Part shown: positions 282-7,259 of the stretch, piece after piece | Numbering within the stretch: the stretch's first letter is position 1 | Layout: every line of letters begins with the position of its first letter | Assembly (NCBI GenBank): GCA_947178195.1 | Contig: CAMWXM010000003.1 | Location: 1 to 34,486 of the forward strand | DNA length: 34,486 nucleotides | Source of the DNA: an uncultured Ruminococcus sp. | GTDB taxonomy: Bacteria > Bacillota > Clostridia > Oscillospirales > Ruminococcaceae | Reading direction: 5' to 3' | The notes under the pieces: generated by a model | Told to the model about the DNA's origin: nothing | What the model saw: the letters and a program-made list of their open reading frames with translations, nothing else | Databases searched by the model: none | Program-made: the position numbers and the translations under genes

Positions 282-3200
282 TTATACACTCATAATATTA
301 TCTGCCCACAATTCACATTGGTTCATAACTATTGTGACAGCATCATTCATGCCTTCGGGAGGATAACGATGATCTTTCAGTAATTTGCGTATCATCATAC
401 GCATTTTTGCTCTTGCACTATCACGCTTCTGCCAATCTATAGTTCGATTTTTACGGAGTTTATCAGCAAGTTCCTTAGTAATAGCAATAAGCTCCTCGTT
501 TTCATAGAAGTCCTTGATAGCTTGCGGTTTGGTGAGCGCATCGTAGAAAGCAAGCTCCTCAGCCGTCAGACCAAGTTCTTCTCCGGCTTCTTTAGCTTCA
601 CGGATTTGCTTTGCAAGATTAAGCATTTCCTTAATGACTTGCCTATTCGTCAGCATACCATTCACATAGCGGTTCATCGCACTATGCATGATTTCGCTGA
701 ATTTTTCAGATTTTACGAGGTTTGTACGTTTATAAATATGTACTTGCTCGGCAATCAGGCGTTTCAGCAGTTCAACAGCAAGATTCTTCTCTTTCATTCG
801 GGAAATTTCTTCAAGGAATTTCGGATCAAACAGCGAAAAGTCTTGTTTCTTGTCCGAGAAAAGATTAATTACGCCGTCACTCTTTATACTCTGCTTCAGC
901 AGTTCATTGATTTTAGAATTGATTTCGGGAAGTGACAGCTTTTTACTGCCACCCTGATTGAGGATACGCATTAAAAGTACACGTACAGCTTCAAAGAAAG
1001 CAGCTTCGTCACGCTCTCTTTGCACAGCGATAGAAGAACATAGCGAAAGAGCCTGCTTCAGTAACAATGCTTCTTTAGTGTAACTTTCTCGGTCTTTTTC
1101 TCTATTTCTGTCCATAAGAAAGTTTACTGCACCTGTTATCGTTCTGCCTGCTGTAAGCTCATTACCTCCGAAAAATTCGGAATAGTCATATTGGTGAAGA
1201 AGCTCACGGCAGATTTGCAGTTTCTCCTGAAATTTAGGGTATGCGACTTTTGCAATATCGGTGTTGCCATAGTTCTTGCGGTCACGGACGGTATAATCAT
1301 TCATGGCCTGCTTCAAAGCGCTTGCAATTCCTACATAATCAACCACAAGACCGCCCTCTTTATCACGGAATACACGATTTACACGAGCAATAGCCTGCAT
1401 AAGATTATATCCCATCATCGGCTTATAAACATACATAGTCGCAAGGGATGGAACATCAAAGCCTGTCAGCCACATATCAACAACGATAGCAATTTTCATG
1501 GGACTGTCATTATCCTTGAATTTCTTTGCAAGCTCCTCTTTGTGCCGTTTGTTGCCGATGATATTATGCCATTCTTCGGGATCTTTGTTAGAAGCGGTCA
1601 TTACCACGCCGACTTTTTCTTCCCAACCTGGACGAATTTCAAGAATACGCTTGTATATCTTCATAGCGATAGCTCTTGAATAAGCAACGATCATGGCCTT
1701 ACCGGTCAGCAGATTTTCCCTGTAATTCTCATAATGATCGAGAATATCGTCCACAAGAGATTTTATAGTATCATCGTGACCGAGAATAGCTTCCATTTGT
1801 CCAAGTTCACGCTTGCTTCTTTCAATCACATCAGCATCGGCATTCATAGCCATAATGTCATATTCGGTATCGATCAGTTTCAGTGTACTTTCATCAAGTT
1901 TCAGCTTCATTACACGGCTTTCATAGTATACAGGACGAGTTGCACCGTCCTCAACCGCCTGTGTCATATCGTAAATGTCGATATAGTCACCGAATACCTC
2001 TCGAGTGTTTCTATCTTCTCTGGAGATAGGCGTTCCAGTAAAGCCGATATATGTAGCGTTAGGCAGAGTATCACGAATAATACGAGCTGTACCTATCACT
2101 TTTCTTGCTACAAGTTCCCCGTCCTCATTCTTTGTCATTTTGATTTTTTCGGTCAGACCATATTGTCCCCTATGAGCTTCATCAGCCATAACAATGATAT
2201 TTCTTCTTTCAGACAGAGGTTCACCAGATTCCTCAAACTTCTGCATCGTAGTGAAAATGATACCGTTCGCTTTTCGGTCATCAAGGAGCGTTTTCAGATG
2301 TTCACGGCTCTCAGCGTGTACAGGCTCCTGACGGAGGAAGTCCTTGCACTTGGCAAATTGAGCATAGAGCTGATCGTCAAGATCGTTTCTGTCCGTGATA
2401 ACAACAATGGTCGGACTTTCAAGTTCTGATTGGAGCAAGTGTGCATAAAAAACCATAGACAGCGACTTTCCGCTGCCCTGAGTATGCCAGAACACACCGC
2501 CCTTACCATCCGTAATAGTTGCTCTTTTTGTAGATTCCACAGCCTTGCGGACGGCAAAATACTGATGATAGCCTGCCAGTATCTTAAACTGCTGCAAACC
2601 CTCATTTGAAAACAGTATGAAGTTTTTGAGTATGTCAAGCAGACGGTCTTTCTGAAAAATACCCTCAAAGAATGTGTCAAACTGAGCGTACTGCGTGTTT
2701 TCATAGCTTCCGTCATTCGTTTTCCACTCCATATATCTATCTTCACCTGAAGTAATAGTACCTGCTCGGCTTTCGGACAGGTCGCTCATAACGCAGATTG
2801 CATTGTAAATGAACATAGACGGGATAGAGTGCATATAGTTCCGTATCTGAGTATAGGCTTCCGAAGCATCCGTTTCCTCACGGGACGGAGATTTCAATTC
2901 CATAAGCACCACAGGCAAGCCGTTAACAAACAACAGCACGTCAGGACGCTTGTTGCTGTTCTCAATAAAAGTCCACTGATTAGCCACAACAAACGAGTTA
3001 TTGTCCGTGTTTGCATAGTCAACAAGATAGCAGATTGCAGAGCGTTCCTCACCCTTTTCGGTATACCTAACCTCTATGCCGTTTTGAAGATAATCCATAA
3101 AGACGGCGTTTTTCTGCACAAGCTCGCCGTTTTCAAAGTTCATCAATTTATACAGAGCGTCTGATATAGCGTCATCAGGGAGCGTAGGGTTTAGCCTGTA

Positions 3201-3338
3201 AAGAGCGTTCGTGAGCTCGTCCATGTACAGCGGATTTTTATAGTCACGGGAAATGTCAGGTCCGTATGCGTGGGCGTATCCCATTTTCTCAAATAGCTGG
3301 ATTATTGCGGTTTCGTAGTCAGATTCAGTGTAGGGCAT
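282..3338 (-). CDS. hsdR: Type I restriction enzyme R subunit (HsdR)
   Basis: N-terminal nuclease domain, helicase motifs (FWHTQGSGKSLSMVF, MADEAHR, YIGFTGTP), ~1020 aa. ORF opens at 3347, but the SD AGGAG spaces better for the ATG at 3338. Confidence 0.96.
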   Translation of the reverse strand: MPYTESDYETAIIQLFEKMGYAHAYGPDISRDYKNPLYMDELTNALYRLNPTLPDDAISDALYKLMNFENGELVQKNAVFMDYLQNGIEVRYTEKGEERSAICYLVDYANTDNNSFVVANQWTFIENSNKRPDVLLFVNGLPVVLMELKSPSREETDASEAYTQIRNYMHSIPSMFIYNAICVMSDLSESRAGTITSGEDRYMEWKTNDGSYENTQYAQFDTFFEGIFQKDRLLDILKNFILFSNEGLQQFKILAGYHQYFAVRKAVESTKRATITDGKGGVFWHTQGSGKSLSMVFYAHLLQSELESPTIVVITDRNDLDDQLYAQFAKCKDFLRQEPVHAESREHLKTLLDDRKANGIIFTTMQKFEESGEPLSERRNIIVMADEAHRGQYGLTEKIKMTKNEDGELVARKVIGTARIIRDTLPNATYIGFTGTPISREDRNTREVFGDYIDIYDMTQAVEDGATRPVYYESRVMKLKLDESTLKLIDTEYDIMAMNADADVIERSKRELGQMEAILGHDDTIKSLVDDILDHYENYRENLLTGKAMIVAYSRAIAMKIYKRILEIRPGWEEKVGVVMTASNKDPEEWHNIIGNKRHKEELAKKFKDNDSPMKIAIVVDMWLTGFDVPSLATMYVYKPMMGYNLMQAIARVNRVFRDKEGGLVVDYVGIASALKQAMNDYTVRDRKNYGNTDIAKVAYPKFQEKLQICRELLHQYDYSEFFGGNELTAGRTITGAVNFLMDRNREKDRESYTKEALLLKQALSLCSSIAVQRERDEAAFFEAVRVLLMRILNQGGSKKLSLPEINSKINELLKQSIKSDGVINLFSDKKQDFSLFDPKFLEEISRMKEKNLAVELLKRLIAEQVHIYKRTNLVKSEKFSEIMHSAMNRYVNGMLTNRQVIKEMLNLAKQIREAKEAGEELGLTAEELAFYDALTKPQAIKDFYENEELIAITKELADKLRKNRTIDWQKRDSARAKMRMMIRKLLKDHRYPPEGMNDAVTIVMNQCELWADNIMSV

Positions 3339-3343
3339 GGTAT

Positions 3344-3922
3344 TCATCTCCTAAATAAATTTATTAAGGCATTTATTGAAGCAATCAAAGCCGAAATACC
3401 TGCTGTCATAGCTGTAACTGCAACTAAAAAAGCAGTAATTCCTTCAATAATTTTTTTAGTTGCTGAATAATTTTCTTTTGCAGAAGAAGTAAGTAAATGT
3501 GCTTTTATTTTCAATATAATGCAGTATGAATTTCTAAAAAATTCTATAAACAAATAAGAACTATATGAAATTGCAAACAATATCCCTAAAGCTGCCGGTA
3601 TTTCATACAACGTATTTCCTACATTACTATTCACATAGAAATCTAAAGAAAAAAATAGCGCATAAAAGCAACCTGAAAATAGTATAATATGTATAGCAAG
3701 CGTCAATGCTATTTTTTCTTTCTTGTTCATATTGATAAAGGGAAACAAAAAATACGAAAAAGCTATAAAAACACCAGCTATAATCACTCTTAATTCAGAT
3801 TCTGTATCGTACAATTTACTAAATAACATGAGAATTATCCCTGATAAGAACAATCCAGCATCAATACTATAAAATATTTTCTTGTTACAAAATATTTCCT
3901 TTATTTTCTCTTTAAGTTTCAT
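3344..3922 (-). CDS. multi-pass membrane protein of unknown function between hsdS and hsdR
   Basis: About 5 hydrophobic segments in ~192 aa; good SD (AGGAGG) before ATG at 3922; stop overlaps the hsdR start region. Confidence 0.8.
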   Translation of the reverse strand: MKLKEKIKEIFCNKKIFYSIDAGLFLSGIILMLFSKLYDTESELRVIIAGVFIAFSYFLFPFINMNKKEKIALTLAIHIILFSGCFYALFFSLDFYVNSNVGNTLYEIPAALGILFAISYSSYLFIEFFRNSYCIILKIKAHLLTSSAKENYSATKKIIEGITAFLVAVTAMTAGISALIASINALINLFRR

Positions 3923-3939
3923 ATTTCCTCCTAAAAACA

Positions 3940-5082
3940 TTAAATTTCGACCTCTGATACGTCAATTTCACCGTTCATCAGCTTCGGCAGTAGTGTGTCA
4001 CGAAGATTAGATAAGTTTTTAGCTTCAATCCTGTTCGTATATACTGTTTCAAGCATAGGGGCAACGGCTTGATCGAATTGTTCGATATATTTAGTAGATG
4101 GAATACAGATAGGATACATCATTATCTGTTGTTTATCACCTCTTGGCATTTTAGTTCCTTTTGCACCCGCAACCATATAATCAAAAAATTTATCGGAATA
4201 CAGAGCGCAGTAAAGAAAAACTGATAACTCAACTTTATTAGGTACAAAACAAAGTACATCTGTTGAACAACCACAATCAGAAAAGCAGTATACTATTTTC
4301 TTGAAGTAAGGACGAATATTCGATACAAGCACATCGCCTTTTTTGCATGCAGTTGTCTGCTTGATTGCCGGGAGCGTGGTAGCCTGTACAGCACCTTGAC
4401 GATTAGATTGCATATTTTCAGTTGAGTAATAGGTATCAACTGTTAAATTCTCAAGATTAACCTTATCTTTGGAATATCCACATATATCGGAAAGTGTGCC
4501 TGTTTTCCAATCATTAGGCATAACACCATCAAACGGCTCAAAATCCACAAACCAAGACTTAAAAATCGCCTGAGCCTGCTGCTCTAAATTTTCATTTATT
4601 GCTGTGTTGAGGGCGATTTTGTCGTCAAGCATTGAAAGATAACGCGAAATTACTTGTTGTTTTTCAACATCATCAGGAATATCTATTTCTAAACTATTAA
4701 TATCATTTCTGTTTACCGAACCAAATACTGTTCCACTTTCTTTTTGAGTAAGATATGAAACATAGTATTTCATCATATAAAACAAAAAATCTTGATTACC
4801 ATTTTTCATTCTCAAAGAGCAAACGCCACGCCCTAAACACATATCAACAGGAGTAATGTTAAGGTCTCCAACTGGAGCACGTACGCTCATAATAACATCA
4901 CCCGCTTTTGCAGATTTTGTCATAACTGTAGTATATGTATCAAAAGTTGGATATTTGAAACCAAAAGTCCTATTACCTTGTAGAAAAGGATATCCATTCC
5001 CATCAGTGTTATAATATTTAGACTTTGGCGATTGCCCCATTGTAATATCAACCACTTCTGAAAGTTTATATTTCATACCCAA
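3940..5082 (-). CDS. hsdS: Type I restriction-modification specificity subunit (HsdS)
   Basis: Two TRD-like halves, central conserved region NENLEQQAQAIFKSWFVDFEPF, C-terminal NLRDTLLPKLMNGEI. Confidence 0.95.
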   Translation of the reverse strand: MGMKYKLSEVVDITMGQSPKSKYYNTDGNGYPFLQGNRTFGFKYPTFDTYTTVMTKSAKAGDVIMSVRAPVGDLNITPVDMCLGRGVCSLRMKNGNQDFLFYMMKYYVSYLTQKESGTVFGSVNRNDINSLEIDIPDDVEKQQVISRYLSMLDDKIALNTAINENLEQQAQAIFKSWFVDFEPFDGVMPNDWKTGTLSDICGYSKDKVNLENLTVDTYYSTENMQSNRQGAVQATTLPAIKQTTACKKGDVLVSNIRPYFKKIVYCFSDCGCSTDVLCFVPNKVELSVFLYCALYSDKFFDYMVAGAKGTKMPRGDKQQIMMYPICIPSTKYIEQFDQAVAPMLETVYTNRIEAKNLSNLRDTLLPKLMNGEIDVSEVEI

Positions 5083-5091
5083 TCGCCCCTA
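5066..5091. repeat. second copy of hsdM 3'-end/junction sequence, immediately upstream of and into hsdS
   Basis: 23/26 identical to 5754-5779; minus-strand reading GGG GCG ATT GGG TAT GAA ATA TAA = GAIGYEI*, same peptide as the HsdM C terminus. Confidence 0.85.
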
Positions 5092-5487
5092 TTAAAAATT
5101 CAACCATCTGTCATCCATATCCTTTTTTAAAGTTTCAAAAAGGGAAATATGATCTGATTTCAATTTTCTAATAACATATAGTGACTGTTCGTCGCTGTAT
5201 GTATGGGCAAGGATATTTCTTAAATCAAGAAGTTCAAGCCAGCCATCGCAATTATTTACCATTCCGCACTGATAGGCAACCTTTATAATAGCTTTTGGAG
5301 AGCCTATTTTTTCTTCGAATCTGCCATGCTCTTCTAGTACTTCTTTCATAAGCTTCCACGACTGTTCAAAACATATTTCAAAAAGTCCGACAATGCCGGT
5401 CTGCTCTACGATTGTATAGGGTTCTTCAATTTCCAAACCCTCTTTAAGATTTGCAATAGACTTACAAAAATTATCATATTTCTTCAT
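5092..5487 (-). CDS. HEPN-domain protein, HepT-like toxin / nucleotidyltransferase substrate-binding (HI0074) family
   Basis: RX4HXY-type motif R-N-I-L-A-H-T-Y; helical ~130 aa protein; paired and overlapping with an MNT-domain protein. Confidence 0.9.
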   Translation of the reverse strand: MKKYDNFCKSIANLKEGLEIEEPYTIVEQTGIVGLFEICFEQSWKLMKEVLEEHGRFEEKIGSPKAIIKVAYQCGMVNNCDGWLELLDLRNILAHTYSDEQSLYVIRKLKSDHISLFETLKKDMDDRWLNF

Positions 5488-5764
5488 ATAAAATCACTCC
5501 GTCCCTGTTTATTTCGGCTTGCAGCTCTTCGGTAATGCCCCTGTCCAGTTCCACAACATCAAACATCAGCAAAGTCCACGCTTCTTCTTCAACATCGTAA
5601 TAAAAATCCAGTGCATTTCCACCGCTTATTGCAAGGTCAATATCACTTCTTTCAGAATTAGTTCCTCTTGCTCTCGAACCAAAAAGAATTACTTTTTTTA
5701 TACCATTTTTCTTTGCAATTTTAATAATATCTCTTTCAACTCTTTCTGGAAGATTATATTTCAT
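5474..5764 (-). CDS. MNT-domain minimal nucleotidyltransferase, MntA-like antitoxin
   Basis: GSRARGTNSERSDIDLA motif of the NTase superfamily, downstream FDVVELD; overlaps hsdM and hepT ends. Confidence 0.92.
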   Translation of the reverse strand: MKYNLPERVERDIIKIAKKNGIKKVILFGSRARGTNSERSDIDLAISGGNALDFYYDVEEEAWTLLMFDVVELDRGITEELQAEINRDGVILYEEI

Positions 5765-5779
5765 ATCCTATCGCTCCTA
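5754..5779. repeat. first copy of hsdM 3'-end/junction sequence (within hsdM end and mntA start)
   Basis: GGA GCG ATA GGA TAT GAA ATA TAA on minus strand = GAIGYEI*; paired with 5066-5091. Confidence 0.85.
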
Positions 5780-7259
5780 ATTTTTCACGGATTTCATTTT
5801 CAAGCTTATGTGACTTCTTGAACATTTCGGAAAGCTCGGAAGTCAGCCGCTTCATTTTTTCATCAAACGGTTCTCCATCGTCTTCCTGTTCTTCAATGCC
5901 TACATATCGTCCGGGTGTAAGAATATAATCCTGCATTTCAATTTCCTCAATGGTTGCAGCAGCACAGAAACCTTTGACTTCTTCGAGAGACCCATTCTGA
6001 AAATCTCTGAAAGTATCAGCAAGCTTTTGAATGTCATCATCTGTAAAGTCACGGTGCTTGCGGTCGACCATATAACCCATTTTTCGAGCATCAATAAACA
6101 GCGTTATTCCTTTCTGCTTCTTGTTTTTGCTGATAAACCACAGAGTTACGGGGATAGTTACGCTATAAAAAAGCTGAGTTGGCATAGCAACAATCCCCTC
6201 AACAAGATCGGCTTCAATGATATTCTTGCGTATTTCTCCCTCACCGCTTGACTGAGTAGAGAGCGCACCGTTAGCAAGCACAAGACCTATCTTTCCGTTA
6301 GGCGCAAGGTGATGTATCATGTGCTGAATCCACGCATAGTTAGCATTTCCGGCAGGTGGAGTGCCATATTTCCACCGAATATCATCTTTAAGCTTGTCCT
6401 GTCCCCAATTAGAGAGATTAAAAGGCGGATTTGCCATTATAAAATCGGCTTTCAACGATTTGTGTAAATCATTGAAAAACGTATCGGCATGATATGCTCC
6501 AAAGTCAGCATCAATACCACGGATAGCCATATTCATTTTAGCCATTTTCCATGTATCAGCATTGGACTCCTGTCCATAAACGGAGATATTCCCACGATTA
6601 CCGCTATGTGCCTGAATAAATTTTGCACTCTGCACAAACATACCACCTGAACCGCAGCATGGATCGTACACACGGCAGTTCTCAAAAGGATTGAGTATAG
6701 AAACAATTGTCTTTACGATACTTGACGGAGTATAAAACTCACCGCCCTTGACACCCTCATAAGCGGCAAACTGAGCAATACAGTATTCATAAGTACGACC
6801 GAGCAAGTCTTTGTTGTCGCCGGTATCGGTCATGTCCATGTTGGTAAACAAGTCAACAACATCGCCGAGTACACGCTTGTCAAGATCAGGACTTGCATAA
6901 TTTTTAGGAAGAACATTTTTCAGAGTTTTGTTTTCTTCTTCAATCGCTCTCATAGCGTTGTCAATTACTGCACCAATTTCGGGAGTATGAGCCGCCGCAG
7001 ATACAACAGACCAGCGAGATTTCTCAGGAACAAAGAAAATATTATCCATAAGATAAGCATCAGGCTCGTTTTCAAAGCCATCACCGTCAGCCACAAGCTC
7101 ATTATAACGCTTTTCAAATGCACTTGATATGTAGCGTAGGAATATCAATCCTACAATTACTTTTCTGTATTCAGCAGCAGGGATATGTCCCCAAAGGACA
7201 CAGGCAGCGTCCCAAATCTGCTTTTCAAAGCCAATATTAGCATTATTCTTTTCAGCCAT
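5754..7259 (-). CDS. hsdM: Type I restriction-modification DNA methyltransferase (HsdM)
   Basis: N-terminal HsdM domain, DPCCGSGGM and MANPPFN methyltransferase motifs. Confidence 0.97.
   Translation of the reverse strand: MAEKNNANIGFEKQIWDAACVLWGHIPAAEYRKVIVGLIFLRYISSAFEKRYNELVADGDGFENEPDAYLMDNIFFVPEKSRWSVVSAAAHTPEIGAVIDNAMRAIEEENKTLKNVLPKNYASPDLDKRVLGDVVDLFTNMDMTDTGDNKDLLGRTYEYCIAQFAAYEGVKGGEFYTPSSIVKTIVSILNPFENCRVYDPCCGSGGMFVQSAKFIQAHSGNRGNISVYGQESNADTWKMAKMNMAIRGIDADFGAYHADTFFNDLHKSLKADFIMANPPFNLSNWGQDKLKDDIRWKYGTPPAGNANYAWIQHMIHHLAPNGKIGLVLANGALSTQSSGEGEIRKNIIEADLVEGIVAMPTQLFYSVTIPVTLWFISKNKKQKGITLFIDARKMGYMVDRKHRDFTDDDIQKLADTFRDFQNGSLEEVKGFCAAATIEEIEMQDYILTPGRYVGIEEQEDDGEPFDEKMKRLTSELSEMFKKSHKLENEIREKLGAIGYEI

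Follow-up and report, generated by a model that had tools for sequence, protein, structure and literature searches.

Toxin and defence genes are frequent inside type I restriction-modification operons, and their entry into such operons without breaking them lacks an explanation. The question is raised by a 34,486-nucleotide stretch of DNA from an uncultured Ruminococcus sp. (hereafter the window), in which a putative toxin-antitoxin pair lies between hsdM and hsdS. The relevant features, all on the minus strand, are as follows.

5754..7259, minus strand: hsdM, type I N6-adenine methyltransferase subunit, 501 aa (PF02384, 1e-109; PF12161, 1.2e-22).
5754..5779, minus strand: tail 1, the final hsdM codons and stop (GAIGYEI and stop), holding the Shine-Dalgarno sequence GGAGCGAT and the ATG of mntA.
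5474..5764, minus strand: mntA, minimal nucleotidyltransferase antitoxin, 96 aa (PF18765, Pol-beta NTase, 1.2e-15; matches to MNT/MntA in the PDB).
5092..5487, minus strand: hepT, HEPN toxin of the HI0074/PF08780 family, 131 aa (PF08780, 2.2e-25; TIGR01987 above its cut-off; matches to HI0074/HEPN toxins in the PDB).
5066..5091, minus strand: tail 2, a second copy of the hsdM tail 3' of the hepT stop, holding the Shine-Dalgarno sequence GGGGCGAT and the ATG of hsdS.
3940..5076, minus strand: hsdS, specificity subunit (PF01420, 2.1e-29).
3344..3940, minus strand: predicted membrane protein of 198 aa between hsdS and hsdR (hydrophobic segments in the translation).
282..3347, minus strand: hsdR, type I restriction subunit, 1021 aa (TIGR00348, 1.2e-181).

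With hsdM, hsdS and hsdR sharing one operon, the window holds a type I restriction-modification system; relatives of its hsdM are found across Bacillota, Spirochaetota, Bacteroidota and others. The 198-aa membrane protein gave no match in Pfam, NCBIfam or PADLOC. The hsdS gene most likely starts at the ATG at 5076 within tail 2; the mechanical list of open reading frames places its start at a TTG six bases upstream of this ATG.

The mntA gene is encoded 5' of hepT and overlaps it by 14 nt. The RX4HXY motif of HepT (RNILAHTY) and the GSX10DXD motif of MntA (GSRARGTNSERSDID) are both intact, and the presence of the former in HepT and of the latter in an upstream, overlapping MntA corresponds to the sequence definition of a HEPN/MNT (type VII) pair, although the specific family of MntA is borderline, its score of 45.7 against the NCBIfam MntA model lying below the cut-off of 60. 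Both motifs are reported as signatures of the Shewanella HepT/MntA pair, with GSX10DXD as the key active motif (PMC7641770). HepT of the window would be active as an RNase and silenced by MntA, in pairs of this type through adenylylation. In being antitoxin-first, overlapping and equipped with RX4HXY and GSX10DXD, the pair resembles HepT/MntA of the HI0074/HI0073 type; unlike known HepT/MntA, it is fused by its start codon to the end of hsdM and closed by a second hsdM tail. Neither this fusion nor a duplicated hsdM tail was found described in the open-access literature of PubMed Central. That HEPN families cluster with restriction-modification operons has been noted previously (PMC3710099), and PrrC of EcoprrI is a HEPN-type RNase toxin within a type I restriction operon that provides a second line of defence (PMC3710099, PMC12707154). 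The predicted HepT of the window is likewise encoded by a HEPN-type toxin gene inside a type I operon, but it is accompanied by its own MntA antitoxin, whereas PrrC, which belongs to the ABC-HEPN type, is restrained by the restriction enzyme.

The pair is bracketed by a repeat. Tail 1 (TAGGAGCGATAGGATATGAAATATAA, minus strand 5779-5754) recurs as tail 2 (TAGGGGCGATTGGGTATGAAATATAA, minus strand 5091-5066), which is placed directly 3' of the hepT stop and overlaps the hsdS start. The duplication described in the initial annotation is real: the copies are 688 bp apart and identical at 23 of 26 positions, and none of the three differences (GGA/GGG, ATA/ATT and GGA/GGG) alters an amino acid when read in frame with hsdM. 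Each copy contains the ATG from which the following gene starts, mntA at 5764 and hsdS at 5076. In a repeat search the pair extends to 44 nt at 82% identity (5736-5779 and 5048-5091), because the native mntA start (MKYNLPE) resembles the native hsdS start (MKYKLSE). Nor is the likeness of the tails a product of chance. The consensus tail 18-mer, with up to three mismatches allowed, has three matches in the 3.2-Mb genome (tail 1, tail 2 and one other site), and the local alignment 3' of hepT scores 20/27 against a 95% null of 10, with 0 of 200 shuffles reaching it. A degenerate tail pattern searched in 247 relative genomes fell on hsdM ends, on the second tails of genomes G000 and G223 and on roughly a dozen scattered sites; it is nearly confined to hsdM ends and is therefore not a generic start signal.

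Comparison with related hsdM loci (about 140, at about 57-97% identity) points to a second role of the tail. An ATG able to start the next gene stands 8 nt before the hsdM stop codon in 104 of 144 loci. Across 112 aligned hsdM genes, codons L495, G496, A497 and Y500 show the lowest synonymous entropy among positions with the same amino acid (rank 1 of 31, 36, 32 and 14, respectively), so that the nucleotides themselves are under constraint. The median pairing with the anti-Shine-Dalgarno sequence, computed as duplex energy with the standard sequence rather than this genome's own, is -12.7 kcal/mol in the 104 loci with an ATG overlapping the hsdM end, versus -4.25 in the 40 loci without. Most likely, the hsdM tail also provides the following gene with its ribosome-binding site, and its conservation would be due to this role: the 3' end of hsdM encodes the last residues of HsdM and, at the same time, carries a Shine-Dalgarno sequence (GGRGNGAT), a spacer of ~9 nt and the next gene's ATG in another frame. 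In EcoKI, hsdM and hsdS overlap by 1 nt and are translationally coupled (PMC3510504), and in Staphylococcus xylosus they overlap by 8 bp with a conserved Shine-Dalgarno sequence (PMC10030836). The short overlap in the present loci is similar, but it differs in serving repeatedly as a seam for cargo genes and in being present in two copies.

Relatives lacking the module support the proposal of the initial annotation that hsdM and hsdS were once directly joined. In the majority of them a single tail joins hsdM straight to hsdS through exactly one tail/ATG junction (e.g. L005, L016, L032, L035 and L061), and these loci include the same-genus genomes G009 (L005) and G004 (L016). At 18 examined loci a gene other than hsdS is started from the hsdM tail, the cargo being mntA-hepT, a PIN protein (PF16289), RhuM (PF13310), a PUA-like protein (PF24405), ORF136 or others. 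A second tail stands exactly before the next gene in eight of these (the window, L003, L034, L055, L059, L072, L086 and L142), namely in six of seven mntA-hepT loci, one of them only a stub, and in two of four PIN loci, L086 and L142, whose cargo between the tails is unrelated to mntA-hepT. The weakest second tails are those of L072 (with an indel, p about 0.01) and L059 (p about 0.005), both p values being uncorrected, and the second-tail match at L006 was not significant. The second tail is absent from 10 of the 18 cargo loci and is therefore not required. Tail 2 precedes ORF136 in L003 and L034, whereas in L137 ORF136 is joined to tail 1 without any intervening gene; the position of mntA-hepT is thus upstream of whatever gene used to follow hsdM. 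A conserved protein of ~134 aa without a Pfam match (FTPTYVLA..NITVSDML) recurs upstream of hsdS, following either the hsdM tail or the second tail, in L003 (2392-2796), L034, L059 and L137; its gene is a putative accessory component of type I operons.

For the window allele, a same-species pair with and without the module was not found among the related hsd loci collected; the closest approach is L061, where an hsdS of 52% identity follows hsdM with nothing in between. The comparison of occupied and uninterrupted loci that the initial annotation had suggested gave one junction in each uninterrupted locus and a with/without pair elsewhere: the empty locus L087 and the loci L086 and L142 (PIN gene and second tail) have one common hsdS allele, 88% identical in nucleotides from position -27 of the empty junction onwards. 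Across tail 2 and the hsdS start, L086 is identical to the empty L087 junction at 33 of 34 positions. More generally, in each of six loci compared, tail 2 together with the start of the next gene is closer to the junction of another hsd operon than to the tail 1 of its own locus (in L086 and L142, where that tail 1 has two extra codons, the printed mismatch count is inflated, and alignment on the ATG gives about 6 of 21). The left end of tail 2 varies, from about 20 nt in L055 and about 24 nt in the window group to about 48 nt in L142, where hsdM-like codons continue with altered residues (EFVIREKLEAIGHEI versus ENEIREKLGAIGYEI). The hsdM origin of tail 2 and its position at next-gene starts can be read directly from the sequences of several loci. 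The second tails are apparent remnants of hsdM/next-gene junctions, and tail 2 of the window is best read as one such former junction, which presumably persists because hsdS uses it as ribosome-binding site.

From the synonymous differences it had initially been suggested that each of the two copies evolved as a functional end of HsdM, and this part of the interpretation is not supported. Tail 2 of the window is identical to the hsdM-family consensus; it is therefore tail 1 that carries the three differences, and in a genuine hsdM end such as this, synonymous change is to be expected. Tail 2 copies of other loci carry non-synonymous changes (GEIGHEM in L003, RVIGHEI in L055 and EAIGHEI in L142) while the Shine-Dalgarno sequence and the ATG are retained, and what is kept in tail 2 is a predicted ribosome-binding site rather than an HsdM end. 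Recombination between hsd alleles, as proposed along with it, is largely supported by the better fit of tail 2 to the junctions of other operons; for the window itself, an old local duplication keeps some small plausibility. Short ATG-started frames are also present at the second tails. That of L142 (400-460), MNTGQERINEFVIREKLEAIGHEI followed by a stop, comes after the PIN gene and, in frame with hsdM, continues into the second tail, and one 3' of the PIN gene in L086 (8540-8610) likewise reaches the second tail in the hsdM frame; the window, L003 and L034 have similar frames at theirs.

We propose, with a probability of roughly 0.78, that the locus as a whole is explained by a dual-use hsdM tail, to which mntA-hepT was joined at the ATG, and by a tail 2 that is the remnant of a junction from another hsd operon. 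In the ancestral arrangement hsdS would have followed hsdM directly. The mntA-hepT pair, with a native start (ATGAAATAYRAY) that is already junction-like, would then have been joined at the ATG in such a way that mntA uses tail 1. Orphan mntA genes often have MKYN/MTYN-like starts behind a Shine-Dalgarno sequence of their own, ATGAAATAY being native to mntA, and the mntA start thus naturally resembles the junction. On the other side, hepT would have been joined a few bases 5' of the Shine-Dalgarno sequence of a former hsdM/next-gene junction, most likely one from another hsd operon, and this remnant would have been retained as tail 2 since it would drive hsdS translation. Entry of the pair at the hsdM/hsdS junction, already suggested by the initial annotation, agrees with the location of the module exactly there and with the hsdM origin of tail 2, which goes together with the gene downstream of it. 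The joining itself may have involved short-homology or microhomology recombination together with selection for a working ribosome-binding site. The variable left ends of tail 2, the lack of a recombinase in the operon and the lack of inverted tails in shufflons favour such occasional short-homology joining, whose survivors would be those in which the next gene has a working start, over the action of a cassette recombinase.

An alternative history would be a single insertion of mntA-hepT into the hsdM-hsdS junction with a target duplication of ~24 bp, by a staggered break or slippage, and divergence of the copies in place. One event would give the identical architecture, and the arrangement is common to the window, L003 and L034; moreover, an old insertion that duplicated a short target would leave similar traces, and a ribosome-binding site under selection would draw tail 2 towards the consensus as well. 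We regard this history as unlikely, given that tail 2 is closer to other operons' junctions than to its own tail 1 in all six compared loci and that its left end differs among loci. The same variability of endpoints argues against a fixed recombinase site, and hence against the hsdM tail being a site-specific target for module insertion and excision in the manner of integron cassettes or an hsdS shufflon. Different cargos do occur at one site between direct repeats, tyrosine recombinases are present in many related hsd loci, and shufflons (inverted hsdS copies with a tyrosine recombinase) exist in relatives such as L056, L061 and L079. The window operon, however, has neither a recombinase nor the constant tail 2 boundary of an integron-like cassette, and with its single hsdS it is no phase-variable shufflon; the second tail is missing in more than half of the cargo loci, and the shufflon loci are without inverted tail copies. 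This mechanism is therefore highly improbable. The tail as an inversion site was also considered and rejected, opposite-strand tail copies having been sought in the hsdS-shuffling loci and none found.

Least probable of all, by a little, is that tail 2 is a Shine-Dalgarno sequence resembling the hsdM tail by coincidence. The tail is indeed Shine-Dalgarno-like, and the leader of the orphan mntA at L154 is similar; but the near confinement of the pattern to hsdM ends in the 247 genomes, a similarity that spans spacer and stop and in L142 covers the whole stretch of about 48 nt of hsdM-like codons (EFVIREKLEAIGHEI and a stop), and the match of L086 to the empty junction all speak against convergence. 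At L154/L260 (~7443, minus strand), an orphan mntA with a truncated hepT has the hsdM-tail-like leader AGCTGGGGGAAAATGGGTATGAAA right after a TATAAT box. Excision of this gene from an hsd operon was considered and rejected, since it groups with other orphans and has no hsd genes nearby; likeness to a Shine-Dalgarno sequence is enough to account for its leader.

Returning to the proposed joining at the hsdM tail, trees with weak support suggest at least two captures of mntA-hepT. The pair at L055 (7491-8177) is mixed, with an MntA 90% identical to that of the window and a HepT of a strongly separated clade (100/100) with 37% identity; toxins would therefore also have been exchanged, through a comparable seam where mntA and hepT overlap. 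Two further loci show altered toxins. In L003 (1981-2376, genome G006), HepT reads RNILARTY, the catalytic HEPN histidine being replaced by arginine, and MntA is intact. In L059 (1880-2400), mntA is cut to a stub (MKYDLPEEVER and a stop), and the adjoining HepT reads KCNMSVHIY instead of KRNTSVHIY, so that the HEPN arginine is lost, as would be expected if the antitoxin can be lost only when the toxin is inactivated too. The EGDW/GEDG C-terminus of HepT in L055, L006 and L059 was considered as a translated hsdM tail, which was rejected because the orphan HepT of L157, outside any hsd operon, ends in GEDWM; this C-terminus is native and only provides microhomology. No close MntA was found on viral contigs, and the plasmid records held three distant MntA/HepT pairs only.

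Judged from related bacteria, the hsdM tail is a putative recurrent seam at which defence genes are joined into hsd operons. More tentatively, and with slightly less than even confidence, the dual-use tail may quite generally be the seam at which hsdS alleles are swapped between type I operons and toxin and defence genes are gained or shed, every new piece being accepted since the HsdM C-terminus and a working ribosome-binding site are always restored; the duplicated tails would be the scars of such events and could allow precise loss. The combination of coding end, ribosome-binding site and start codon offers a simple, testable rule by which foreign genes could join with all partners expressed, and the duplicated tail, as a readable scar, would mark insertion events in other genomes and predict which embedded modules can be lost cleanly.
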